A stretch of 64,000 nt of DNA from Verrucomicrobiota bacterium (GTDB taxonomy: Bacteria > Verrucomicrobiota > Verrucomicrobiia > Opitutales > Opitutaceae), in assembly GCA_018239675.1 (NCBI GenBank), contig JAFEGX010000116.1, forward strand, positions 1 through 64,000, written 5' to 3'. Shown piece by piece: positions 8,272 to 23,670 of this stretch (position 1 is its first letter; every line of letters starts with the position of its first letter). Made by a program: the position numbers and the translations under genes. Below the pieces are notes generated by a model that was not told the DNA's origin, made no database searches, and worked only from the letters and a program-made list of their open reading frames with translations.

Positions 8272-9798
8272 ATGAACAAGTCCAACCCGCACCCCCGCCG
8301 GTATCCGGCCGTCGCCCTCGCAGCGACCCTCCTGCTCCTGTCCCTGCCGCTCCGCGCGGACGAGGATCCCTCGGCCCCCAAGGGCCTGGTCGCCCTCCCG
8401 CCCGAGGTCGAGGCGATGCCCGTCGAGCAGGCGATCCTCACCACCCCGCCGCATGTGCCGCCGCCGTTCAAGCGGAAGTACTCCGCCCGCGTCGTGGTCA
8501 ATCTCGAGGTGCGCGAAGTCGTGAAGCGGCTCGCCGACGGCGTCGAGTACACCTTCTGGACCTACGGCGGCACCGTGCCCGGCCGGTTCATCCGCATCCG
8601 CGAGGGCGACGTCGTCGAGTTCCACCTCAACAACCACCCGTCGTCCAAGCTGCCACACAACATCGACCTCCACGCGGTCACCGGACCCGGCGGCGGCGCG
8701 GCCTCGACCTTCACCGCGCCGGGCCACAGCTCGCAGTTCACCTTCCAGGCGCTGAATCCCGGCCTCTTTGTCTACCACTGCGCCACCGCGCCGGTGCCCA
8801 TGCACATCGGCAACGGCATGTACGGCCTGATCCTCGTCGAGCCAAAGGAGGGCCTGCCGCCGGTCGACAAGGAGTACTACGTGATGCAGGGCGAGTTCTA
8901 CACCACCGGCAAGTATGGCGAGGAGGGCCTGCAGTCCTTCGACATGGCCAAGGCGATCGACGAGCGCCCGCCCTACGTCGTGTTCAACGGCGCCGTCGGC
9001 TCGCTCGTCGGTGACAAGGCCCTCACCGCCAAGGTCGGCGAGCGCGTCCGCATCTACTTCGGCGTCGGCGGGCCCAACCTCACGTCGTCCTTCCACGTCA
9101 TCGGCGAGATCTTCGACAAGGTTTACCCCGAGGCCGGCCTCAGCCTGCCCAATTCCAACGTCCAGACCACCTTCGTCCCGTCCGGTGGCGCCGCCGTGGT
9201 CGAGTTCAAGGTCGAGGTCCCCGGCACGTTCATCCTCGTCGACCACTCCCTTACCCGCGCGTTCAACAAGGGAGCGCTCGGCATGCTCAAGGTCTCCGGA
9301 CCCGAGAACCGCGTGATCTACTCCGGCAAGGAGATCGACGCCGTGTACCTCGGCGCCCAGGCCGAGGAGGGCTCCGAGTCCGCCAAGCGCGAGGCCGAGC
9401 TGAAGTCCAAGATCGCCGCCGAGATCAAGTCCAACCCGGCCATCACCGCCCTCACCAAGGAAATGCAGATCGAGAAGGGGAAGCAGGTCTACATGGGCCT
9501 GTGCTTCGCCTGCCACCAGCCCGACGGCAAGGGCCTGCCGGGCGCCTTCCCGCCGCTCGCCGGCTCCGACTTCCTCAAGGCCGACCGCGACCGCGCCGTG
9601 CGCATCGTGCTCAAGGGCCTCTCCGGTCCGGTCGTCGTCAACGGCCAGACGATCAACAGCGTCATGCCGCCGCAGGAGGCCGTCCTCACCGACGCGCAGA
9701 TCGCCGACGTCCTTACCTACGTCTTCAACGCGTGGGGCAACTCGGGCGACGCCTTCAGCGCCGACAAGGTGAAGGCCATCCGCAACGAGATCCACTAA
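8272..9798 (+). CDS. nirK: Copper nitrite reductase with C-terminal cytochrome c domain
   Basis: A 508-residue periplasmic enzyme that reduces nitrite to NO. A signal peptide (cleavage near residue 29) precedes two cupredoxin domains. Type 1 copper ligands are H129, C170, H178 and M183. Type 2 ligands are H134, H169 and H325, with catalytic D132 and H275. The short loop [15 protein letters not shown] and the sequence around it are of class II (AniA-like) type. Residues ~395-495 add a cytochrome c domain (CFACH, C411/C414/H415; probable axial Met in INSVMPPQE), so an electron can be passed to type 1 copper within one chain, as in three-domain CuNiRs. It heads a row of accessory genes. Confidence 0.96.
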
Positions 9799-9824: not shown

Positions 9825-9909
9825 TTTCACCGCCAAGCGCGCCAAGGCCGCGAAGCACCCCTGACCCAGCCGACCGTCTCTTTGCGACCTCCGCGGCCTT
9901 CGCGGTGAA
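9825..9909. repeat. Inverted repeat with 9-nt words (CGCCAAG/CGCGAAG family)
   Basis: The left arm (9825-9855) reads TTTCACCGCCAAGCGCGCCA and onward in 9-nt words (GCCAAGCGC, GCCAAGGCC, GCGAAGCAC). The right arm (9880-9909) is the inverse, ending GCCTTCGCGGTGAA. It fills the nirK-nirV gap, and the only upstream nirV start (GTG 9905) lies inside the right arm. Confidence 0.75.
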
Positions 9910-10741
9910 CCATCAATCCCTCCTCGTGCACCCGCTGCCGTCACGTCTTCGCCTGCGGCTCGCCGCGCTGATCGTCGCCCTCGCGGTGACGGCGGCGACC
10001 GCGGGCGCGGAAGCGGTCCGGATGGTCACGATCCCGGCCGGCAGCTACGTGCCGCTGCAGCGCTCCGAGAAGGATGCGCCGACGGTGCCGGTCGCAGCCT
10101 TCCTGCTCGACGAGCGGCCCGTGACCAATGCGGAGTTCGTGGCCTTCGTGACCGCGGTGCCGAAGTGGCGCCGGTCGCAGGTCAGCCCGCTCTTCGCCGA
10201 CAGCTCCTATCTCGGCCAGTGGGTCGGCGACCTCGATCCCGGCCCCGGCGCCCCGCCTGACTCCCCGGTCGTGCAGGTCTCGTGGTTCGCCGCGCGCGCC
10301 TACGCCCACTGGGTCGGCAAGCGGCTCCCGACCACCGCCGAGTGGGAGCTGGCCGCCAGCGCCGGCTACACCCGTCCCGACGGACGCAACGACGACGAGC
10401 TCAACCGCGACCTCTACGCCTGGCTCGCCCGTCCCGTCCCCGCCGTCCTGCCCGCGGCGGGCCGCGGCCGGCCCGACTACCACGGGGTGCGCGACCTGCA
10501 CGGGCTGGTGTGGGAGTGGGTCGAGGACTTCAACAGCGCCATGGTCACCGGCGAGTCGCGCGCCGACTCCGGCCTGGATCGCAACCTGTTCTGCGGCGCC
10601 GGCGCGGTCGGCGCCAAGGACACCACCGACTACGCGGCGTTCATGCGCGGCGCGCTGCGCTCGTCGCTGAACGCCAAGAACACCACCACCTCGCTCGGTT
10701 TCCGTTGCGCGCGGGACCTGCCGCCCGCCGCCGGCCGATAA
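9905..10741 (+). CDS. nirV: NirV-like formylglycine-generating-enzyme-fold protein
   Basis: A protein of up to 278 residues with a signal peptide and an FGE-sulfatase (SUMF1) domain: MVTIPAGSYVPL, ERPVTNAEFVAFV, QVSWFAARAYAHWVGKRLPT, TAEWELAASAGYT, and GLVWEWVEDFN near the end. Proteins of this fold encoded after nirK are called NirV; their job is not established. The paired catalytic cysteines of true formylglycine-generating enzymes are missing: the C-terminal region RGALRSSLNAKNTTTSLGFR has none where they are expected, so sulfatase activation is unlikely. The start is uncertain: GTG 9905 is inside a repeat arm and GTG 9926 would give a more typical signal peptide. Confidence 0.82.
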   Translation: MNHQSLLVHPLPSRLRLRLAALIVALAVTAATAGAEAVRMVTIPAGSYVPLQRSEKDAPTVPVAAFLLDERPVTNAEFVAFVTAVPKWRRSQVSPLFADSSYLGQWVGDLDPGPGAPPDSPVVQVSWFAARAYAHWVGKRLPTTAEWELAASAGYTRPDGRNDDELNRDLYAWLARPVPAVLPAAGRGRPDYHGVRDLHGLVWEWVEDFNSAMVTGESRADSGLDRNLFCGAGAVGAKDTTDYAAFMRGALRSSLNAKNTTTSLGFRCARDLPPAAGR

Positions 10742-13382: not shown

Positions 13383-15506
13383 CTACTGGTCGAATTGGAA
13401 GCCGCCGTTGGCCTCGAGTGACAGGACGGACAATCGGCCGGGCCGGGCCTCGACCTCGGCCTGCCACTCACGGCGCGGGACGGTCGGATCGGGACTCGTG
13501 GCGACGCTCACGGACACCGCATGCCGGCCCGGGCTCAGCGGCACCCGCAGTTCGCCCACCGAAAATCCATCGGACTTGAGACCCTTCGGCCGAAAAACGT
13601 GTTCCTCGGCGCGGCCATCAATCACGAGGCGCACCGTCACCGGCGAGCGGGTCCGCTGGGCCGGCATCGCCACCCGCATGTGGATCGGGCGCTGGTCGTG
13701 CGCGGGATCGGGCACGGCCGCCGGGGCGCCAGCCAGCCAGGCACCGTACTCACGGAAGGTGAACACGAACTCGGCCGCCCCCGGCGCTGGATTGCGGAAC
13801 GGCGCGTCGCTCACCGCCAGCAGCCCGGCAAGCCCGAGCGCGGTCAGGACCACCCCGGCCAGCACTGCCGGCCAGGTCCTGCGCGGAGAAATGGCCGGGG
13901 CCGGAGACCGTTGCCGCAGCCGGAGGGCGGTTTCGGTCACGAGCCGCGGCTGCAGCGGGTTGAAGGTCACGTGCGCCACCCGGCTCACGTCGGCGCGGTT
14001 CGGCCGCAACACTGGCTCGCGGGTCCCCGCCAGGCGCGCCGGCAGCCAGCGGTTCCCCTCGCGGCCGAACGCCTCGCTGGTACCGCAGCCGACCGCCAGC
14101 ACCGCCGTGGCGCCCTTCGCCAGCAGGCGCTCGATCAGCTTCGGCTCCAGCCAGCCGATGCACGGCACGGGCCGCACCGAGTAGCCCGGCAGGCGGATCT
14201 GCCACCGGACGGCCGCGAAGTGCTCCCAGCCGCCGTCCTCCTGCGCGCACACAAACGCCAGCGCCGGCGGTGCGCCGCGGGCCACCTCCGCGACGACGAA
14301 GGCCTCGAGTTCGCGCGCAACCTGCTGGGCGTCGAACCAGGCCAGGCCAATTCCCTGCGTGTCACACGCCCCGGTGCAGACGCCGCAGCCGACGCAGCGG
14401 TTGGGATCAACCTGCGCCTGTGACGGAAACGGCTTTCCGTCCGTGCGCGGCACCATCGTGATTGCCCCAAACGGGCAGTCCTTCGAACACAGCGTGCAGG
14501 CGAAGCAGCGTGAGACATTGACGGTCGCCTGGAAGGTCGACCGCGGCCGGCGGCGCGCCAGCCACCACGGCACCGTCCCGAGCCCGACCACCGCGAGGCC
14601 GCCGGCGAGCCAGAGCCCCGCCCCCGACAGGCGCGCGGCGAGGGCCAACGGGGCGAGGTACCACCAGTCCATCGTGAACCGCGCCGGCTTGACCGTCATG
14701 TGGGCCATCGCGGCATTCGTTGCCGGGTGGACCGTCGCCGCGACCAGCACCGCGCCAGCCAGCCAGGCCGTCAGGCGCCAGTCGGGCAGCAACCGTGAGC
14801 GGCTCAGGCGCGCGAGGTGGAGGCAGAGGGCGCCGGCGATCCCAAGCGGCAGCACCATGTGCAGGAAGAAGACGACGAAGAACAGCAGCGACGGCACCGT
14901 GCGGTCCAGCGCGAATAGCCGCAGCATCGGCTCGCCGAACACGGGCAGCACGTCCACCGCCCGCATCGTGCCGAGCGCCACCAGCTGCGCCCGCACGTCC
15001 CAGACGAGCCAGTAGCCGGTCCAGCCGATGAACCACACCAGTCCCAGCAGGACGATCCCGCTCATCCAGGCGAGCCAGCGCGCGTCGGCAAACTTGCGGG
15101 CGAGCAGCGTGCGAACCGCGTGCGCCAGGATCAGCAGCATCGCCAGATCGGACGAGTAGCGGTGCATGCTTCGCACCAGGCCGCCAAGCGAGCGCGGGCC
15201 GAGGTCCGCGACCGAGTGCCACGCCAGCTGCACGCTCGGGGAATACCAGACCAGCATCAGCACGCCGGACAGGGTCGCCAGCAGGAGCAGCACGTTGGCC
15301 GCGGGGCCGAGCTGGGCCAGCGGATTCCACTCGCGCGGCAGCCACCGCTCCAGGAGCGCGTCCAGCCGCGCCGCCCAGCGCTCGCCCGCCGCCAGCAGCG
15401 GCGCCGCCCGGGTCGGCGGCGCCGGCGGCACCGCTCCGGCCCCCGCCGCCCCCGGTCCCAGCGTCTCCGCGAGCACCTCGCAATCGGGCTCAGGGTGCGC
15501 CGGCAT
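13383..15506 (-). CDS. Cytochrome b / double [4Fe-4S] ferredoxin / MvhD-like fusion protein
   Basis: A 707-residue membrane protein with three joined modules. Residues ~65-320 form a cytochrome-b-type helix bundle with two histidine pairs 14 apart (H115/H129 and H216/H230), expected to bind two b hemes. Residues ~330-385 form a two-cluster ferredoxin (C334, C337, C340, C344; C371, C374, C377, C381). Residues ~415-495 resemble the hydrogenase iron-sulfur (MvhD/FlpD) domain, with cysteines at 420, 449 and 474. A last helix (~553-575) and a periplasmic tail of beta-rich character follow. It could pass quinol electrons across the membrane; that is inference. Its start overlaps the SCO-like gene upstream by 17 nt, so it is the last gene of the NO-reductase operon. 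Confidence 0.85.
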   Translation of the reverse strand: MPAHPEPDCEVLAETLGPGAAGAGAVPPAPPTRAAPLLAAGERWAARLDALLERWLPREWNPLAQLGPAANVLLLLATLSGVLMLVWYSPSVQLAWHSVADLGPRSLGGLVRSMHRYSSDLAMLLILAHAVRTLLARKFADARWLAWMSGIVLLGLVWFIGWTGYWLVWDVRAQLVALGTMRAVDVLPVFGEPMLRLFALDRTVPSLLFFVVFFLHMVLPLGIAGALCLHLARLSRSRLLPDWRLTAWLAGAVLVAATVHPATNAAMAHMTVKPARFTMDWWYLAPLALAARLSGAGLWLAGGLAVVGLGTVPWWLARRRPRSTFQATVNVSRCFACTLCSKDCPFGAITMVPRTDGKPFPSQAQVDPNRCVGCGVCTGACDTQGIGLAWFDAQQVARELEAFVVAEVARGAPPALAFVCAQEDGGWEHFAAVRWQIRLPGYSVRPVPCIGWLEPKLIERLLAKGATAVLAVGCGTSEAFGREGNRWLPARLAGTREPVLRPNRADVSRVAHVTFNPLQPRLVTETALRLRQRSPAPAISPRRTWPAVLAGVVLTALGLAGLLAVSDAPFRNPAPGAAEFVFTFREYGAWLAGAPAAVPDPAHDQRPIHMRVAMPAQRTRSPVTVRLVIDGRAEEHVFRPKGLKSDGFSVGELRVPLSPGRHAVSVSVATSPDPTVPRREWQAEVEARPGRLSVLSLEANGGFQFDQ

Positions 15507-16485
15507 GGGACTCGTGCAGCAGGGCGCGCAGGCCCTCGCGGAGCCACGCCTGATGGCGCGGATCCAGCGTGAAGCGGTAGGCGATATGACCGGAACGGTC
15601 GACGAGGAGGAAGAGATTGGCGTGGTCGATCACGCCGGTGCGCGGATCGCGCACGGCGGAGAACTGCAGGCGCGTCAGCGCCTCGTGCATCGCCGCCGGC
15701 CGGGGGGTGTTGAGATACCGGAACTCCGGGTACGACAGGCCGCGGCCCTCGGCCACCAGGTTCATGAGCTCGCTGGTCTCATACTCGGGATTCAGCGAGA
15801 GCGCGACCACGCTCAGGCCGGCCCGGTCCGCCGGAGCGAGCTCGCCGAGGATCTTCTTCAGCTCGAGGAAAATCTCGGGGCAGGCGGTGGTGCAGGTCGC
15901 GTAGACCCCCGTCACCAGGACGACCCGGCCGCGCAGGTCGGCCAGGCGAAATTCCCGCGCGCGCTGGTCCACGAAGGTCGTGTCGGGCAGGTCCAGCCGC
16001 ACCCGGATGCGCTCGCCGGGAAACGGCGGCACGACCGCGGCGCGCGCCTGGTCGGCGCGGGCATACCAGGCCAGCCCCGCCACCGCCAGCGCCACGAGGC
16101 CGAGACCCGCGGCGGCGGCCCCGGCGTGCCGGCGCCAGGTCGCGCCGGCCGCCAGCGCCCGCACCGCGTCCCGCCACAGCAGCACCGCCACCCCCGCCAC
16201 AAACAGCGGCTCGCCCATCATCACCGACACCGCGAGCCAGGAAACGCCGCCGGTGCGCGGGTCACCGCGGTAGCACCACCGCTGGAAGTCGCGCACGAAA
16301 TCGCCTACCGCCCCGCCCGTGGTTGGGCCGAACACCGTGAGCAGCAGGAACGCCTCGTACGCCACCAGCGCGGCTAAGAGGAACACCAGCAGCCCGGGGC
16401 CGGTCAGCCAGCGCGCGCCCGCCGGCAGCCGCCGGCCGAGGGCGGCCGGCGGGAGGGCGGGAACAACGGGGACGGATCCGGCCAT
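15490..16485 (-). CDS. Membrane-anchored SCO1/SenC protein with N-terminal helices
   Basis: A 331-residue protein. The first ~150 residues hold about four hydrophobic helices (GPGLLVFLLAALVAYEAFLL and later segments). The remaining part is an SCO thioredoxin fold: LADLRGRVVLVTGVYATCTT, where CTTAC gives the copper-binding CxxxC pair, and the conserved His is in GVIDHANLFLLVD. It would assemble the CuA centre of the subunit II encoded upstream in the same operon. The gap to that operon's subunit I gene is 12 nt, and its stop overlaps the next gene's start, showing tight coupling. Confidence 0.86.
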   Translation of the reverse strand: MAGSVPVVPALPPAALGRRLPAGARWLTGPGLLVFLLAALVAYEAFLLLTVFGPTTGGAVGDFVRDFQRWCYRGDPRTGGVSWLAVSVMMGEPLFVAGVAVLLWRDAVRALAAGATWRRHAGAAAAGLGLVALAVAGLAWYARADQARAAVVPPFPGERIRVRLDLPDTTFVDQRAREFRLADLRGRVVLVTGVYATCTTACPEIFLELKKILGELAPADRAGLSVVALSLNPEYETSELMNLVAEGRGLSYPEFRYLNTPRPAAMHEALTRLQFSAVRDPRTGVIDHANLFLLVDRSGHIAYRFTLDPRHQAWLREGLRALLHESHAGAP

Positions 16486-16497
16486 GGCGCCAGGGGC

Positions 16498-18201
16498 TCA
16501 GCGCACCGGCCAGACGTCCGCCAGCGCCTTCCAGTTCGCGAAATAGTAGACCGCGAAGCAGGCGAGGAAGACCAGCGTGAGCACGATCGTGCCCTTGGTC
16601 GCATAGTGGTCGTGGGCCAGCGAGCCGGGCTGGCTGCCGGCGAGCGCCGGCGGCGTGCCCCAGTCCGCCATGGGACGGTTTTCAATCTTCGCGCCGAAGA
16701 ACAGGGTGCCGACACAGAGCAGCACGAAGATCAGCAGGCCGGTGAAGGCGAGGATGCCGCCGAGGCCGAGCACGCCGAGCCAGAGGTGCGCCGCGGGACC
16801 GTAGACGCCCTGGGCGTCGATGTCCCAGCTGCGGCGGCTCACGCCCATCGAGCCGGCAAAGGACATGCCGAACGACACCAGCGTGATGCCGATCCCGAAC
16901 AGCCAGGGCTGCACCCGCGCGACCCCGCGCAGGATGAAGTCACGCTGGAAGATCAGCGGCACCACGTAGTACGCGAGGCCCATGAACGCGAGCGTCGTGC
17001 CGCCGACGACCGTGACGTGGAAGTGGCCCGGGATGCGGAGGGTGTTGTGGGCGATGATGTTGATCTGCTGCGTGCCGAGCGTGACGCCGGTGATGCCGCC
17101 CAGGAACCCGAAGATCACCACGGAGAGCGCGGTGGCGGCGAACGCCGGGTTGCGCCACGGCAGCGCGGTGACCCAGCCGAAGATGCCGGAGGTGTAGCCC
17201 TTCTCCCGCATCGCGATCTCGACGCCAGCCGGGACCGTGAAGCCGTGCACCATCGAGGCGAGCACCGCGAGGTACATCGCGTACGAGGTGTTCCAGATCT
17301 TCCACGTCGCGCCCACGCCCGGGTCCACCAGCAGGTGGTGCGCCGACGCGAGATTGATGAACAGGACGTAGAGCGCGAACGCCGTGCGGCACACCGCCTC
17401 GTTGATCGGGCGGGCGCCGACCACGACATGAGTCAGGAGATACCACACCGCGACCATCGCGCAGACGTTGACCTGCTGCGACTGGTGCCCGAGGCCCCAC
17501 CAGATCAGGCGGTACCAGCCCGGGTCCGGCTGCGGCGTCCACCCCATCGCGTAGGTGAAGGTCGGGATCATGACCAGCGCGCCATGGAGCAGCGTCACGA
17601 CCGCGATGATCGCGGCCGCCAGCGCGCCGAACGTCACGATCGGCATCGAGCCCTCGTAGGCCCGGTCGCGCTTCGCGACGTAGAGCGTGGCGAAGAAGTT
17701 GAACACCCCCGTCAGCGTGCCGACCGCGACGAGGATAATGCCGAGGTAGAACAGCGGGTGCGCGAGCAGCGGGAGGTAGGACGTCATCATCACGTCGGCC
17801 TGCCCGACGAGGATGATGTAGTCCACCATCACGGCGCCGGTCAGCATCAGGCCGAACGCGGTCCACGCGACCTTGCGCGAGAACAGCCGCGCGTTGAGCG
17901 GCGTGGTGCAGGCGAAGGTCAGGATCGCGACCTCGAAGAAGAGGATCCACAGGATCAGCATGTTGATGCCGTGGAAGGTGAGGACGCGGTAGAACCAGTC
18001 GGCGGGCAGCAGGTGCACGGCCTGCCAGCGGGTAAGCGCGAGCAGGAGCGCGGCGATGCCGCCGAGCAGGAGGAACACGATGCCGGCGACGGCGTTGAGC
18101 TTGATGAAGCGCTGGGCGTCGAGGCAGACGCCGAGGCCCGTGGTGCCGCACACGCGGGCGCGGGCACCCGGCTCGGCCAGGTTGTGGGAGGAGGTGGACA
18201 T
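16498..18201 (-). CDS. Heme-copper superfamily subunit I lacking the active-site tyrosine; probable NO reductase (eNOR-like)
   Basis: A 567-residue integral membrane protein with about 13 helices. All six heme/metal histidines are present: H77 (LTFHGIN), H239 (WWGLGHQSQQVN), H288/H289 (ASAHHLLVD) and H393/H395 (PGHFHVTV). In oxygen reductases of A type the fourth residue after the helix VI histidine is the cross-linked Tyr (HPEVY); here it is Gln (HQSQQ). Loss of this Tyr is a mark of NO-reducing members such as eNOR, sNOR and bNOR. With a CuA subunit II, heme O synthase and nirK beside it, NO reduction to N2O is the best reading. The exact NOR family is not proven. Confidence 0.85.
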   Translation of the reverse strand: MSTSSHNLAEPGARARVCGTTGLGVCLDAQRFIKLNAVAGIVFLLLGGIAALLLALTRWQAVHLLPADWFYRVLTFHGINMLILWILFFEVAILTFACTTPLNARLFSRKVAWTAFGLMLTGAVMVDYIILVGQADVMMTSYLPLLAHPLFYLGIILVAVGTLTGVFNFFATLYVAKRDRAYEGSMPIVTFGALAAAIIAVVTLLHGALVMIPTFTYAMGWTPQPDPGWYRLIWWGLGHQSQQVNVCAMVAVWYLLTHVVVGARPINEAVCRTAFALYVLFINLASAHHLLVDPGVGATWKIWNTSYAMYLAVLASMVHGFTVPAGVEIAMREKGYTSGIFGWVTALPWRNPAFAATALSVVIFGFLGGITGVTLGTQQINIIAHNTLRIPGHFHVTVVGGTTLAFMGLAYYVVPLIFQRDFILRGVARVQPWLFGIGITLVSFGMSFAGSMGVSRRSWDIDAQGVYGPAAHLWLGVLGLGGILAFTGLLIFVLLCVGTLFFGAKIENRPMADWGTPPALAGSQPGSLAHDHYATKGTIVLTLVFLACFAVYYFANWKALADVWPVR

Positions 18202-18219: not shown

Positions 18220-18771
18220 TTATTCGACGAAGATCTTGCCGGTCATGGCGTGGTGCCCGGCGCCGCAGAACTCGTTGCACACGATCGTGAACTCGCCCGT
18301 GGAGGTCGGTGTGATCGTGAGCACGTGGTCGTAGCCAGGCACGACCTGGAAGTTCATGTTCAGCGGCTGCAGCGAGAAGCCGTGCTGGAGGTCGAGCGAC
18401 GAGAGGTGCAGGCGGTAGGTCTCGCCCTTGCGCAGGCGCAGCGCGGGATACCACTGCCACATGCGGCCCATCAGGTAGGCATCGCCGCCGGCCGGCGGCT
18501 CGACGATGGGCAGCTCCGTCGTGAGCGGGTTCGGGACCGGATTCTTGAAGGTGCCGACGCGGTTGGCCGCGACGAATTTCTCGGTCCGGGCATAGTAGTC
18601 GCCTGGGACCACGCGGTAGGCCTCGCCGGTGCTGTTCTGTTTGCCGCGAAAATGCCAGTACGGCATCATCAGCGACATCACGAAGCACCAGAGGATCGCG
18701 CAACCGAGCCAGATTTTCTCGTGGCCGGCGGGACCGTGAAACCAGGGGGCGGTGAGGGGACGAAGGCTCAT
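18220..18771 (-). CDS. Heme-copper oxidoreductase subunit II with CuA site
   Basis: A 183-residue protein with one N-terminal anchor (IWLGCAILWCFVMSLMM) and a periplasmic cupredoxin domain. The CuA ligands are complete: H130 (LQHGF), then C165, E167, C169, H173 and M176 in VCNEFCGAGHHAM. It would accept electrons from a soluble cytochrome c and pass them to subunit I, encoded 18 nt downstream. It is short beside typical subunit II proteins and has one helix, not two. ATG 18771 is chosen because an upstream extension would run through the neighbouring small gene. Confidence 0.88.
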   Translation of the reverse strand: MSLRPLTAPWFHGPAGHEKIWLGCAILWCFVMSLMMPYWHFRGKQNSTGEAYRVVPGDYYARTEKFVAANRVGTFKNPVPNPLTTELPIVEPPAGGDAYLMGRMWQWYPALRLRKGETYRLHLSSLDLQHGFSLQPLNMNFQVVPGYDHVLTITPTSTGEFTIVCNEFCGAGHHAMTGKIFVE

Positions 18772-18782
18772 GGCGGCGGCGG

Positions 18783-18932
18783 TCAGGGCAGCAGCCCGGG
18801 CTTCGTCTGCATCAACTCGACCCAGCCCCAGACGGTGTAGGACAGGATCGGGATTATCACGCCGAGGGCGAGCAGCAGCCAGGGGCTGTCGAGCACCTTC
18901 TGCCACGGGTGTTTTTGGGGTTCGTTATTCAT
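18783..18932 (-). CDS. 49-residue single-helix membrane peptide of the NO-reductase operon
   Basis: A short reading frame starting at ATG 18932 and ending in TGA at 18783-18785. It encodes a cytosolic N-terminus (MNNEPQKHPWQKVL), one strongly hydrophobic helix (WLLLALGVIIPILSYTVWGW) and a short tail (VELMQTKPGLLP). The start overlaps the stop of the upstream gene by 8 nt and the next gene starts 11 nt beyond its stop, so translation is likely coupled. Small one-helix subunits are common in heme-copper enzymes; I read it as an accessory subunit of this complex. There is no database name I can give. Confidence 0.78.
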   Translation of the reverse strand: MNNEPQKHPWQKVLDSPWLLLALGVIIPILSYTVWGWVELMQTKPGLLP

Positions 18933-20373
18933 GGTGGTGGAGGGAAAGGGCCGGGTGCGGGTCGCGGCGCCACGACGCGAGCACGCTCAGCATCGCCGCG
19001 AGGAACAGGATGCCGCCGGTCACCGCGACCAGGCCGCCCAGGCCCATCACGCCGAGGCCGAGGTACTCGCCGAGCGTGCGGACATGCTGCTCCGCGCCGT
19101 ACTGCTTGCGGCCGAGCCCGTAGGCGCCCGCCAGCGCGAAACCCAGGCCGAACACGGCCTGGCCACCGCCGAAGAGCAGAAGCTGCCACCGCGCGCGCCG
19201 GTGCCCGGGGGCGACCGCGCCACCCGGGAAGACCCGCGCCGCAAACTCGTACGCTGTCGTCATGAGCGCCAGCGTCACCGCGCCGATCGCGCAGTGGTAA
19301 TGGCCGGGCACGAGGGTGTTCGAGCCGCGGATGAGCGCGCCCAGCCCGAAGCCCAGCACGGTGAGCGTCATGCTGCCGACCAGCCCCGCGAGCCGGTAGT
19401 CCCGCCCGGCGCCGTCACGGCCATGGCGCCGCAGGTGCGCCACCGCGACCCCCAGCACGACGACGACGACCGGGAAGATGGTCCAGCGCATCAGGTGCGT
19501 CGCCATCGAGAAATAGTTTGTCGTGGTCGTCCCCGCGAACGCCAGCGGCGGCAGCACCAGCTGCGGCAGCACCAGCGCTGTCAGCAGCGCCGCGGCCGGC
19601 GCGGGCGCCAGCACCGGGCGGCCCGTCACCCGGTGCAGCAGGTGCAGCCACAGCCCGAGCATCGCCGCGACATTGGCCACCTGCAGCACGTGGCCGCCGC
19701 CCCAGAACACGAGCTCGCAGCGCACGCTGGGCGCCGCGGCCGGCGTCGTGAGCCAGGCGCCGGCAAACGTGGCCAGGGCCACCAGGTTCGCGGCCGCCGC
19801 CGCGCGCAGGGCCAGCACCGCGTCGGGCGCCAGCGCGAGGTCATCCGTCCGCGCCGGCGTGGCGAGGGCCAGCGCGCAGAAGAGTCCCACGCCGGCAAAC
19901 CAGGCGGCGAGCCCGCCGAAGAACACCGGATGGTCGATCGCCGGAACGTAGTTCGAGAGCACGGGCTGCGCGCCAGGGAGGCACGCCCCGGCCAGCAGGC
20001 CGGCCACGCCGGTGGCGGCGAGTGCCAGCGCCAGGGCCGTCCCGCCGCGGTGCAGGCGCGGTCCCAGCGCCAGGCCGAGGCACGCCAGCGTGCCGGCCTG
20101 GAACCAGACCACGATCGCGAGGTCCACGTGCACCACGAGGGCGCGCCGGAAGAACAGCGGGTCGGTGAACAGCCAGCCCAGGAAGGGCAGGCGCCCGATC
20201 ACCAGCGTCAGCGACAACAGTCCCGCCAGCACCAGGCTGCCCAGCGCGAGCCGATACCAGCCGCGCGCCGCCGCCTGGCCGGGATCGCCGGCCAGCGCAT
20301 CCGTGGCGTCGGGCAAAGGGAAGGAATGGGGCAGCGCAACCGGGTCCGGCGCACAGACGGTGGGCGGGGGCAT
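18925..20373 (-). CDS. Divergent heme-copper subunit-I paralogue with five of six ligand histidines
   Basis: A 482-residue membrane protein with about 12 helices. Histidines matching subunit I are H82 (VHVDLAIVVWF), H228 (WGGGHVLQVAN), H293 (MATHLMRW) and H358/H360 (PGHYHCAIG). The first member of the helix VII His pair is T292. After the helix VI His it reads HVLQVAN, against HQSQQVN in the partner encoded three genes downstream; Gln at +3 and Asn at +6 are shared, and neither has the catalytic Tyr. It may be a second NO-reducing subunit or a heme-carrying partner that has lost FeB/CuB binding. It is the first gene of the operon. Confidence 0.75.
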   Translation of the reverse strand: MPPPTVCAPDPVALPHSFPLPDATDALAGDPGQAAARGWYRLALGSLVLAGLLSLTLVIGRLPFLGWLFTDPLFFRRALVVHVDLAIVVWFQAGTLACLGLALGPRLHRGGTALALALAATGVAGLLAGACLPGAQPVLSNYVPAIDHPVFFGGLAAWFAGVGLFCALALATPARTDDLALAPDAVLALRAAAAANLVALATFAGAWLTTPAAAPSVRCELVFWGGGHVLQVANVAAMLGLWLHLLHRVTGRPVLAPAPAAALLTALVLPQLVLPPLAFAGTTTTNYFSMATHLMRWTIFPVVVVVLGVAVAHLRRHGRDGAGRDYRLAGLVGSMTLTVLGFGLGALIRGSNTLVPGHYHCAIGAVTLALMTTAYEFAARVFPGGAVAPGHRRARWQLLLFGGGQAVFGLGFALAGAYGLGRKQYGAEQHVRTLGEYLGLGVMGLGGLVAVTGGILFLAAMLSVLASWRRDPHPALSLHHHE

Positions 20374-20499: not shown

Positions 20500-21429
20500 A
20501 TGCCCGCGACGAGCCTCCCCCTCGCCCCGCCGTTGGCCCGCCCCCGCCCCCAGGCCGCGATCCGTACGTCGATCCGGGCGCTGGTCGCGCTGACCAAGCC
20601 GCGGCTGGCGTTCCTGTCGGTCATGACCACGATGGCCGCGTACGGCACCGCGCGGCCCGAGCCGCGCACCGGCCCGGTCGGTCTGACCTTGGTGGGTACG
20701 ACACTCGCCGCGGCCGGGGCGCTCTCCCTCAACCAGTGGTGGGAACGCCGGGCCGACGCCCGGATGCGGCGCACGCTTCTCCGGCCCCTGCCGCAGGGCC
20801 AGCTGAAGCCCCGGGTGGCGCTCGGCTGGAGCCTGCTGCTCTCGCTCGGCGGCGTCGGCCTGCTCGCCGGCACCGTCAACGTCCAGGCCGCCGCGCTCGC
20901 GGCGCTGACCATCCTCCTCTACGGCGTGGGATACACGCCGCTCAAGCGCCACACCCGCTGGGCCACGGAAGTTGGCGCCGTGTCCGGAGCGCTGCCGGCG
21001 TTGCTCGGCAATGCCGCGGCCGGCCACCTGGCCGCGACACCCGGCCTCGTGCTCGCGGCCATCCTGCTGTGCTGGCAGATGCCGCATTTCTTCGCGATTG
21101 GCTGGAGGCACCGGGCCGACTATCGGGCGGCGGGATTTCTCCTGCGGCCGGCGGTCGACCCGACCGGGCGCTCCACCGCGGCCTGGTCGTTGGGCTATGC
21201 GCTGCTGCTGGTGCCCGTCTCGCTGGGCCCGTGGCTGCTGGGTTGGTTCGGTCCGGCCTATGGCGTCCCGACGGCCATCGCGAACGGGTGCTTTCTCCTC
21301 GGCGCGTGGCGGTTCGTGACGGCGCGGCCCGACCGCGACACCGCGGCCCGCCGGCTGTTTCTCGCTTCGCTCCTTTACCTCCCGGTTGTGATGGGCGCGC
21401 TGGTCCTCGACTGGTTCCTTGGACGGTAA
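20500..21429 (+). CDS. ctaB: Protoheme IX farnesyltransferase (heme O synthase)
   Basis: A 309-residue UbiA-superfamily membrane enzyme that adds the hydroxyethylfarnesyl group to heme b. The substrate motif is complete: NQWWERRADARMRRTLLRPL, with Asn and spaced Asp residues for Mg-prenyl-diphosphate and the RT.RPLP tail. A second conserved loop is LLYGVGYTPLKR, and CWQMPHFFAIGWRHRADYRA is the usual third. It is divergent from the NO-reductase operon and shares its control elements, implying that the encoded heme-copper enzyme carries heme O or A. Heme A synthase (ctaA) is not in the window. Confidence 0.94.
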   Translation: MPATSLPLAPPLARPRPQAAIRTSIRALVALTKPRLAFLSVMTTMAAYGTARPEPRTGPVGLTLVGTTLAAAGALSLNQWWERRADARMRRTLLRPLPQGQLKPRVALGWSLLLSLGGVGLLAGTVNVQAAALAALTILLYGVGYTPLKRHTRWATEVGAVSGALPALLGNAAAGHLAATPGLVLAAILLCWQMPHFFAIGWRHRADYRAAGFLLRPAVDPTGRSTAAWSLGYALLLVPVSLGPWLLGWFGPAYGVPTAIANGCFLLGAWRFVTARPDRDTAARRLFLASLLYLPVVMGALVLDWFLGR

Positions 21430-22470: not shown

Positions 22471-23199
22471 ATGCCGCTGACTCCGCGCACGTCCGACCTG
22501 AAAGCCACCGGGCTGATCGGGACCCTGCGCTGCTGCCAGCTGTTCTCGGGACTTTCCGCGGAAGACCTGGCGGTGATCGCGGGTTTCATCGTCGTGCAGA
22601 AGCTCGCGAAGGACGAGTACCTGTTCCACGAGGGCGACCCGTCGCGCGGGTGCTACCTGGTGCAGAGCGGCGCGGTGAATGTCCACCGCGTCAGCGCCGC
22701 CGGGAAGGAGCAGGTGATCCACGTGTTCCGCTCGGGCGAGTCGTTCGCCGAGGCCGCGCTGGCCTCCCCGACCGGCTACCCCGCCAACGCGCGCGCCGTG
22801 GAGGCGAGCACGGTGCTGGTGATTCCCAAGGCCCCGATCCTCGAGCTCATCGGGCGACGGCCCGACCTTGCGATGCGCATGCTCGGCTCGATGAGCGGGC
22901 ACCTGCGGGTGCTGGTCGGCATGCTCGACGACCTCACGCTGAAGGACGTCGAGACCCGGCTCCTCAACTGGCTGGTGAAGCACGCCCCGGCAGGCCCGAC
23001 GGGGAAAATCCACCTCGCCGGCACCAAGCGGGTGCTGGCGGCCGAACTCGGCACCAGCAGCGAGACGCTTTCCCGCACGCTGGGCCGGCTGCGCGACCAG
23101 CACCTGATCACCGTTTCCGGCAAGATCATCACGGTCCATAACCTGCCGGCCATCCAAAGCCTGCTGCGCCGCAACCTCGGCGAGCACGAAAACCCTTGA
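22471..23199 (+). CDS. CRP/FNR-family regulator, DNR/NnrR-like
   Basis: A 242-residue regulator. The cyclic-nucleotide-type beta-roll spans ~20-140 (LFSGLSAEDLAVIAGFIVVQ, then GCYLVQSGAVNVHRVS). The dimer helix follows, then a winged helix: RVLAAELGTSSETLSRTLGR, whose E-x-x-S-R matches the recognition helix of FNR, which reads TTGA half-sites. The N-terminus lacks the four-cysteine iron-sulfur motif of FNR, having only one CC pair, so NO or heme sensing as in DNR is more likely than oxygen sensing by a cluster. It sits among seven matching boxes and is the obvious candidate to bind them. Confidence 0.86.
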   Translation: MPLTPRTSDLKATGLIGTLRCCQLFSGLSAEDLAVIAGFIVVQKLAKDEYLFHEGDPSRGCYLVQSGAVNVHRVSAAGKEQVIHVFRSGESFAEAALASPTGYPANARAVEASTVLVIPKAPILELIGRRPDLAMRMLGSMSGHLRVLVGMLDDLTLKDVETRLLNWLVKHAPAGPTGKIHLAGTKRVLAAELGTSSETLSRTLGRLRDQHLITVSGKIITVHNLPAIQSLLRRNLGEHENP

Positions 23200-23250: not shown

Positions 23251-23670
23251 ATGAACGCCTCTCCCGTCGCCCTGTTCGACCGCCTTGGCGGCCGCCCGAA
23301 ACTGCTCGAGCTGCTCCGCTACTTCTATGCCGACGTGCGCCAGCACGCGGAGATCGGGCCGATCTTCAACGCGCACATCGCCGACTGGCCGGCCCACCTG
23401 GAGAAGATCGCGGACTTCTGGTCGGGCGTCACCGGCGGACCGGCCCGTTACGCCGGCGGCATGCCCATGAAGCACTTTCCCCTCCAGCTCGAGGAACGCC
23501 ACTTCCAGGCGTGGCTCGGGCTCTGGCATCGGCACTGCCAGGCGCGCCTCGCGCCGGCCGAGGCCCGGGAACTCATCGCCGCCGCGGAGACGATCGGCCA
23601 GCGCCTCAGGATGATGATCGCGAACTACCAGGCGTATCAGGCGGGAGAAAAGCGACCCGGGACGATGTGA
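23251..23670 (+). CDS. Group III truncated haemoglobin
   Basis: A 139-residue globin of the group III truncated type. It begins LFDRLGGRPKLLELLRYFYA and has the B/C region IGPIFNAHIADWPAHLEKIA with FWSGVTGGPARYAGG. The proximal histidine is expected in GMPMKHFPLQLEERHF and the tail contains AWLGLWHRHC. Members bind heme and protect against NO and nitrosative stress in Campylobacter. The gene follows the regulator with its own box inside the upstream stop codon, which places it in the NO-response set. Confidence 0.88.
   Translation: MNASPVALFDRLGGRPKLLELLRYFYADVRQHAEIGPIFNAHIADWPAHLEKIADFWSGVTGGPARYAGGMPMKHFPLQLEERHFQAWLGLWHRHCQARLAPAEARELIAAAETIGQRLRMMIANYQAYQAGEKRPGTM

Follow-up and report, generated by a model that had tools for sequence, protein, structure and literature searches.

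Genes for ba3-type cytochrome c oxidases are arranged in the order IIa-II-I, and the operon described here has the same arrangement. The published signature of eNOR, an NO reductase, is a Gln at the position occupied by the cross-link Tyr of oxidases (PMC8756737). In Bacillus azotoformans, the core order of the bNOR/qCuANOR operon, cbaC-cbaB-cbaA-senC (PMC3475470), equals that of our peptide, CuA subunit II, subunit I and SenC/SCO genes. How heme A gets to subunit I of heme-copper oxidases (HCO) is an open question (PMC9145763). We analyzed a stretch of 64,000 nucleotides (the window) from an Opitutaceae genome of Verrucomicrobiota, in which such a core is preceded by a gene for a second protein of the subunit I type. 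We designate this protein SUI2 and the catalytic subunit I of the same operon SUI.

Organization of the locus

SUI2 is encoded by an open frame of 482 codons (20373..18925, minus strand) and is the first gene of a tightly packed six-gene operon that reaches down to 13383. The gene order is SUI2, a 49-aa IIa-like peptide, CuA subunit II, SUI, SCO and a cytochrome b/ferredoxin protein. The features of the operon and its surroundings, with the evidence for each in brackets where available, are as follows.

18925..20373, minus strand: SUI2, CuB-less heme-copper subunit I-like protein, 482 aa (alignments, AF2 model, homologues)
18783..18932, minus strand: 49-aa single-TM peptide, subunit IIa-like (49-86% identity kept across dozens of loci)
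18220..18771, minus strand: subunit II, 183 aa, CuA motif CNEFCGAGHHAM (motif, CoxB-like matches)
16498..18201, minus strand: SUI, catalytic subunit I, 567 aa (PF00115, six ligands, Gln243)
15490..16485, minus strand: SCO1/SenC copper-insertion protein (PF02630)
13383..15506, minus strand: cytochrome b / 2x[4Fe-4S] / FlpD-like fusion, 707 aa, last gene of the operon (PF00033, Fer4, PF02662)
20500..21429, plus strand: UbiA-family prenyltransferase, CtaB-like, heme O synthase (PF01040)
8272..9798, plus strand: NirK, Cu nitrite reductase with a C-terminal cytochrome c domain (TIGR02376 over cut-off; Pfam)
9905-10741: NirV-like FGE-domain protein
22471-23199: CRP/FNR regulator
23251-23670: truncated globin

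The end of SUI2, including its stop codon, overlaps the IIa-like peptide gene by 8 bases (ATGAATAA), and an overlap with the next gene was present in 32 of 48 homologous loci. In size and position, this peptide resembles cbaC of the Bacillus CuA-NOR (PMC3475470). In one locus (L042:3914-4272), a IIa-like peptide gene was matched twice in tandem between SUI2 and subunit II. The best start of subunit II was at 18771, which was preferred over 18906; the protein scored slightly below the cut-off of PF00116 and had CoxB-like matches. The gene for the cytochrome b/[4Fe-4S]/FlpD-like fusion is a conserved member of the operon across loci. This 707-aa protein (13383-15506), which combines cytochrome b, two [4Fe-4S] motifs and an FlpD/MvhD-like domain, closes eNOR operons in several phyla and suggests an electron input to eNOR other than cytochrome c alone.

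On the other side of SUI2 lies the divergent CtaB-like gene, with 126 bp separating both starts. About 18 further loci, almost all from Opitutaceae, likewise had a divergent ctaB beside SUI2. In a group of Balneolota-like loci (L177-L181), the place directly upstream of SUI2 where ctaB sits elsewhere was occupied by a divergent regulator of about 150 aa, which we take, by sequence recognition, to be Rrf2-family-like and possibly NsrR-like. NirK is a source of NO in the window, and nirK was located no more than about 10 kb from the same operon in approximately 20 related loci; NirS was not found in the host genome. The gene at 22317-21589 presumably codes for a RIC/YtfE-like protein, as judged by sequence recognition.

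Assignment of the catalytic subunit

SUI had a strong match to PF00115 and could be aligned with the ba3 oxidase. Its set of ligands (H77, H239, H288, H289, H393 and H395) is complete, and among 44 relatives a single deviation from it was seen. This exception is the SUI of a Cyclobacteriaceae MAG (L069:2952-4619), in which GHFK replaces GHFH in helix X, such that the low-spin heme ligand is changed from His to Lys. Gln243 of SUI, within the motif GHQSQQVN, occupies the position of the cross-link Tyr of oxidases, and SUI therefore combines the Gln and the six ligands by which eNOR is recognized; the CuA-type subunit II that is also expected of eNOR is represented in the operon by the protein carrying CNEFCGAGHHAM. 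Based on these ligands, Gln243, the CuA motif, the peptide-II-I-SCO order and the proximity of nirK, we read the operon as coding for a predicted NO reductase of the eNOR type, to which SUI2 has been added. An sNOR/bNOR label for SUI was rejected in view of the Gln, rather than Asn, at the cross-link position.

Fold and ligands of SUI2

The AF2 model of SUI2 (pLDDT 89, pTM 0.88) had 12 TM helices, as in the fold of subunit I. All significant matches listed in a search of PDB with this model (Foldseek/VIA) were HCO subunit I proteins, with Z of about 29-31, and among these listed matches ba3 showed the highest sequence identity to SUI2 (17-19%). The open frame, its place in the operon and these fold matches agree with the preliminary description, in which the first gene of the operon was said to encode a second heme-copper subunit I.

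Helices were assigned by combining predicted secondary structure with alignments, which placed helix VII at residues 257-280 and helix VIII at 285-317. The whole interval from residue 248 to residue 292 is free of histidine. Helix VII is therefore devoid of His, and both of its ligands (H288/H289 of SUI) have been lost; the pair was absent in every one of 87 homologues as well. The preliminary description had counted five retained ligand His and a single loss, with Thr292 in the position of the first helix VII His. This has to be corrected: four ligands are kept (H82, H228, H358 and H360), and Thr292-His293 (THLMRW) sit in predicted helix VIII. We rejected the alignment with one lost ligand since H293 belongs to helix VIII and varies, being His in only 24 of 52 and 25 of 87 homologues in two alignments. 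The same description had considered that FeB/CuB might be missing, and the absence of the helix VII pair from SUI2 and its homologues bears this out; no aligned His elsewhere that could restore the site was found in the homologue alignments.

The retained histidines are highly conserved: H82 (helix II) and H228 (helix VI) were present in 87 of 87 homologues, and H358 and H360 (both in helix X) in 86. W224, Q231, R422 and K423 were invariant in the same set, and E220 was conserved. R422-K423 align with the R456-R457 pair of SUI, which corresponds to the heme-propionate arginines in ba3. From these alignments, H82 and H360 are predicted to be the low-spin heme ligands and H358 the high-spin heme ligand, with H228 a predicted orphan distal histidine. 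SUI2 thus has all three heme-ligand His (one in helix II, two in helix X), and H228 is the only one left of the three CuB/FeB His (one in helix VI, two in helix VII). With four ligands retained and the helix VII pair absent, two intact heme sites and no CuB/FeB are predicted, and judging from its ligands SUI2 would be unable to carry out canonical reduction of O2 or NO. It also differs from the eNOR pattern of six ligands and a Gln at the cross-link Tyr position (H+4), as its helix VI sequence GHVLQV has Gln at H+3 and Val at H+4.

The host genome contains another degenerate heme-copper subunit I (L073, G000:C141:10238-11467), which is cbb3/CcoN-like and about 480 aa in length. This protein apparently lacks the helix VI CuB histidine (GAWTLWLAP versus GHNAV of CcoN).

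Relationship of SUI2 to SUI and its annotation

Profile-profile comparison (hhalign) showed that SUI2 and SUI are homologous, with 27% identity over 406 columns and a probability of 99.9. Both have the helix VI motif H-x-x-Q-x-x-N (GHVLQVAN in SUI2, GHQSQQVN in SUI), as had been noticed in the preliminary description, and the common descent with a NOR-type subunit that it derived from this motif is upheld by hhalign and by the tree. In phylogenetic analyses, all SUI2 sequences clustered together with full support, eNOR subunit I being their nearest neighbor, in a tree whose deep branches are long and whose root is arbitrary; eNOR-linked SUI2 proteins were separate from a Rickettsiales/alphaproteobacterial subgroup. 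The dN/dS of SUI2, about 0.10-0.27 over eleven pairs, is above that of SUI, yet clearly indicates purifying selection.

The Pfam COX1 model (PF00115) did not match the host SUI2 at E 0.1; it matched 31 of 48 homologues at E<=0.01 (best 6e-13). None of these 48 proteins matched the NCBIfam oxidase models. NCBIfam and PDB sequence searches with SUI2 returned nothing useful, and tblastn searches of plasmids gave no match, whether the query was SUI2 or an alphaproteobacterial homologue. Members of the family, with weak or no PF00115 scores and no NCBIfam oxidase model, are easily overlooked or misannotated as oxidases. A literature search, which left out the main eNOR paper (where, or in whose supplement, a prior mention is possible), found no description of the family, which apparently consists of undescribed CuB-less subunit I-like proteins.

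Occurrence of SUI2 with eNOR

We gathered eNOR-linked loci by a scan of the genome collection and by tblastn. The order SUI2-peptide-II-I-SCO-cytb was present in every eNOR-linked locus with sufficient flanking DNA, L069 alone deviating. These loci were from Opitutaceae and from several MAGs labelled Deltaproteobacteria, Proteobacteria or 'bacterium'. Balneolota-like genomes also showed this gene order. In L069, the Cyclobacteriaceae MAG mentioned above, the order was SUII-SUI-SUI2~SCO-cytb, followed by cytochrome cd1 nitrite reductase, and SUI2 was naturally fused to an SCO1 domain inside the eNOR operon (L069:4630-6639).

Among 388 genomes of Verrucomicrobiota, SUI was detected in 9, of which 8 also had SUI2; the exception (G074) possessed the remaining operon. 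Of the 345 genomes examined in the phylum of Gracilimonas, seven carried SUI and five of these had SUI2 in the same operon. The pairing of SUI2 with SUI is well beyond chance, and the co-occurrence of SUI2 with the NOR genes in several phyla is as expected from the preliminary description. On the other hand, eNOR operons without SUI2 are common, including six alphaproteobacterial operons, and SUI2 is therefore a lineage-specific addition rather than a core part of eNOR. An obligate partnership was rejected because of these standard operons.

SUI2 family outside eNOR operons

The genomes of Gracilimonas (L065) and Anaplasma (L067) encode a SUI2 homologue but lack an eNOR subunit I. A mislabelled contaminant as the source of the "Anaplasma" locus was rejected, as its flanks match other Rickettsiales loci and the family was found in 85 of 131 Rickettsiales genomes, where it is normally a single-copy, stand-alone gene. 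The heme A synthase CtaA was present in 83 of the 85 SUI2-positive versus 13 of the 46 SUI2-negative genomes (Fisher p 4e-18, shared ancestry ignored). In 45 Rickettsiales genomes SUI2 adjoined ctaA within 1 kb, always in divergent orientation. The association with A-type COX1 was also positive, although weaker (76 genomes with both, 9 with SUI2 only, 15 with COX1 only and 31 with neither). Nine Rickettsiales genomes contained aa3 and CtaA without SUI2.

Several loci place the gene among cox genes, for example ctaA-SUI2-coxB-coxA-ctaB-ctaG-coxC (L160) and SUI2-ctaB-coxB-coxA-ctaG-coxC (L121). In six Anaplasmataceae-like loci, SURF1 was one or two genes away from SUI2. No heme-synthesis gene adjoined the homologues in Gracilimonas (L065), Schekmanbacteria (L066) and several Rickettsia-like loci. 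The stand-alone gene of Gracilimonas mengyeensis (L065:8914-10065) begins 13 bp after a same-strand gene resembling cytochrome P450. In two Rickettsiales genomes (G738 and G779), an open frame of about 505 aa was matched by SUI2 in two separate parts, about 75-195 bases apart, and in some Rickettsia-like genomes the match covered the first three quarters only.

Possible functions of SUI2

The reading that we tentatively favor, at close to evenly balanced probability, is that SUI2 binds heme without CuB and assists oxidoreductases that depend on heme A/O, as a factor for biogenesis or heme handling that was recruited into eNOR operons. Its subunit I-like pocket would accept heme O from CtaB or heme A from CtaA, and SUI2 would help to deliver this heme to, or would stabilize, the real subunit I. 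The beneficiary would be the eNOR NO reductase of the same operon in the window, and the aa3 oxidase in the case of the Rickettsiales relatives. Heme binding, heme delivery and physical contact with subunit I are inferences from the observed fold, ligand pattern, conservation, operon and genomic associations. This role fits both the eNOR and the CtaA/aa3 settings. It is consistent with the (nearly) invariant heme-pocket His, R422-K423 and Q231 in 87 homologues that lack the helix VII pair, with purifying selection, and with the occurrence of the family without eNOR. The co-occurrence with CtaA and the divergent ctaA neighbors in Rickettsiales, the cox contexts of L160 and L121, the proximity of SURF1, the divergent ctaB in Opitutaceae and the SCO fusion in L069 point in the same direction. 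However, neighborhoods and co-occurrence of genes are an indirect kind of evidence, the synteny in Rickettsiales may represent one inherited arrangement, some homologues have no neighboring heme-synthesis gene, and the nine Rickettsiales with aa3 and CtaA as well as the alphaproteobacterial eNOR operons show that SUI2 is not universally needed. In a more specific and more doubtful form, the family might carry heme A/O, or act as a template for it, and so load the true subunit I of aa3 (in Rickettsiales) and eNOR (in Opitutaceae, Balneolota and others); it would then be an oxidase-core pseudoenzyme turned assembly chaperone.

The main rival explanation, which we consider less likely, is that SUI2 bears heme as a stable part of eNOR without catalytic function, in a complex with two subunit I-type proteins such as the preliminary description had considered. 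SUI2 would then be an electron relay with its hemes as stations, accepting electrons, for example, from quinol or the cytochrome b/ferredoxin module and passing them on to CuA and SUI. The fact that SUI2 always comes first in the operons of Opitutaceae, of several proteobacterial MAGs and of Balneolota-like genomes, the conserved heme ligands and the joint presence with SUI in Verrucomicrobiota and the Gracilimonas phylum are in line with such a role. The frequent overlap with the IIa gene fits translational coupling, which suits a structural subunit and in this respect counts against heme handling. However, other genomes have the standard eNOR operon without SUI2, and Rickettsiales have stand-alone SUI2 with CtaA; in Anaplasma there is no eNOR subunit I to join.

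Heme A synthase catalyzes an O2-dependent heme oxygenation. In a further reading, which we regard as improbable, SUI2 is a heme-only enzyme or electron donor in its own right, for example a quinol-oxidizing cytochrome that feeds heme A synthase, or an O2/NO-binding heme protein. The divergent pairing with ctaA and the orphan distal His228, which shares its helix with the conserved E220 and Q231, would agree with this idea, but the neighbor in Opitutaceae is CtaB, whose prenyl transfer requires no electrons, and no quinone site could be identified from the SUI2 sequence. Finally, a decaying duplicate retained by operon inertia alone, to which the faster evolution compared with SUI and the two lost ligands might point, is very improbable and already largely refuted by the low dN/dS, the residues invariant over 87 divergent homologues, and the distribution of the family across phyla with retention in reduced Rickettsiales genomes. 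Whether heme-handling partner or eNOR subunit, the SUI2 family offers a concrete, testable candidate for heme insertion into subunit I or a new kind of NO reductase with two cores.

Comparison with known systems

The window operon is similar to eNOR, an NO reductase derived from the B family (PMC8756737), in that its SUI has the Gln signature and the full set of six ligands and is accompanied by a CuA subunit II. SUI2 and the eNOR catalytic subunit are distant homologues that have the helix VI H-x-x-Q-x-x-N in common, but SUI2 is without both helix VII ligands, and eNOR operons elsewhere are without SUI2. Compared with the B. azotoformans qCuANOR (PMC3475470), the cross-link position is Gln in SUI instead of Asn, and a second subunit I gene is present in the window but not in the Bacillus operon. 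The extra membrane gene also differs, coding for a 6-TM protein in B. azotoformans and for the cytochrome b/ferredoxin fusion in the window.

Subunit I of the Thermus ba3-type cytochrome c oxidase is the closest solved relative of SUI by sequence. It has the same fold as SUI2, which lacks its helix VII CuB ligands and helix VI Tyr. In proposed function, SUI2 is comparable to SURF1 and CtaM, biogenesis factors for heme A and CuB (PMC9145763), with which it shares a proposed handling of heme A and a ctaA/ctaB/cox neighborhood. However, SURF1 (two TM segments and a periplasmic domain) and CtaM (DUF420) have folds unrelated to subunit I (PMC9145763), whereas SUI2 is itself built on the subunit I fold.
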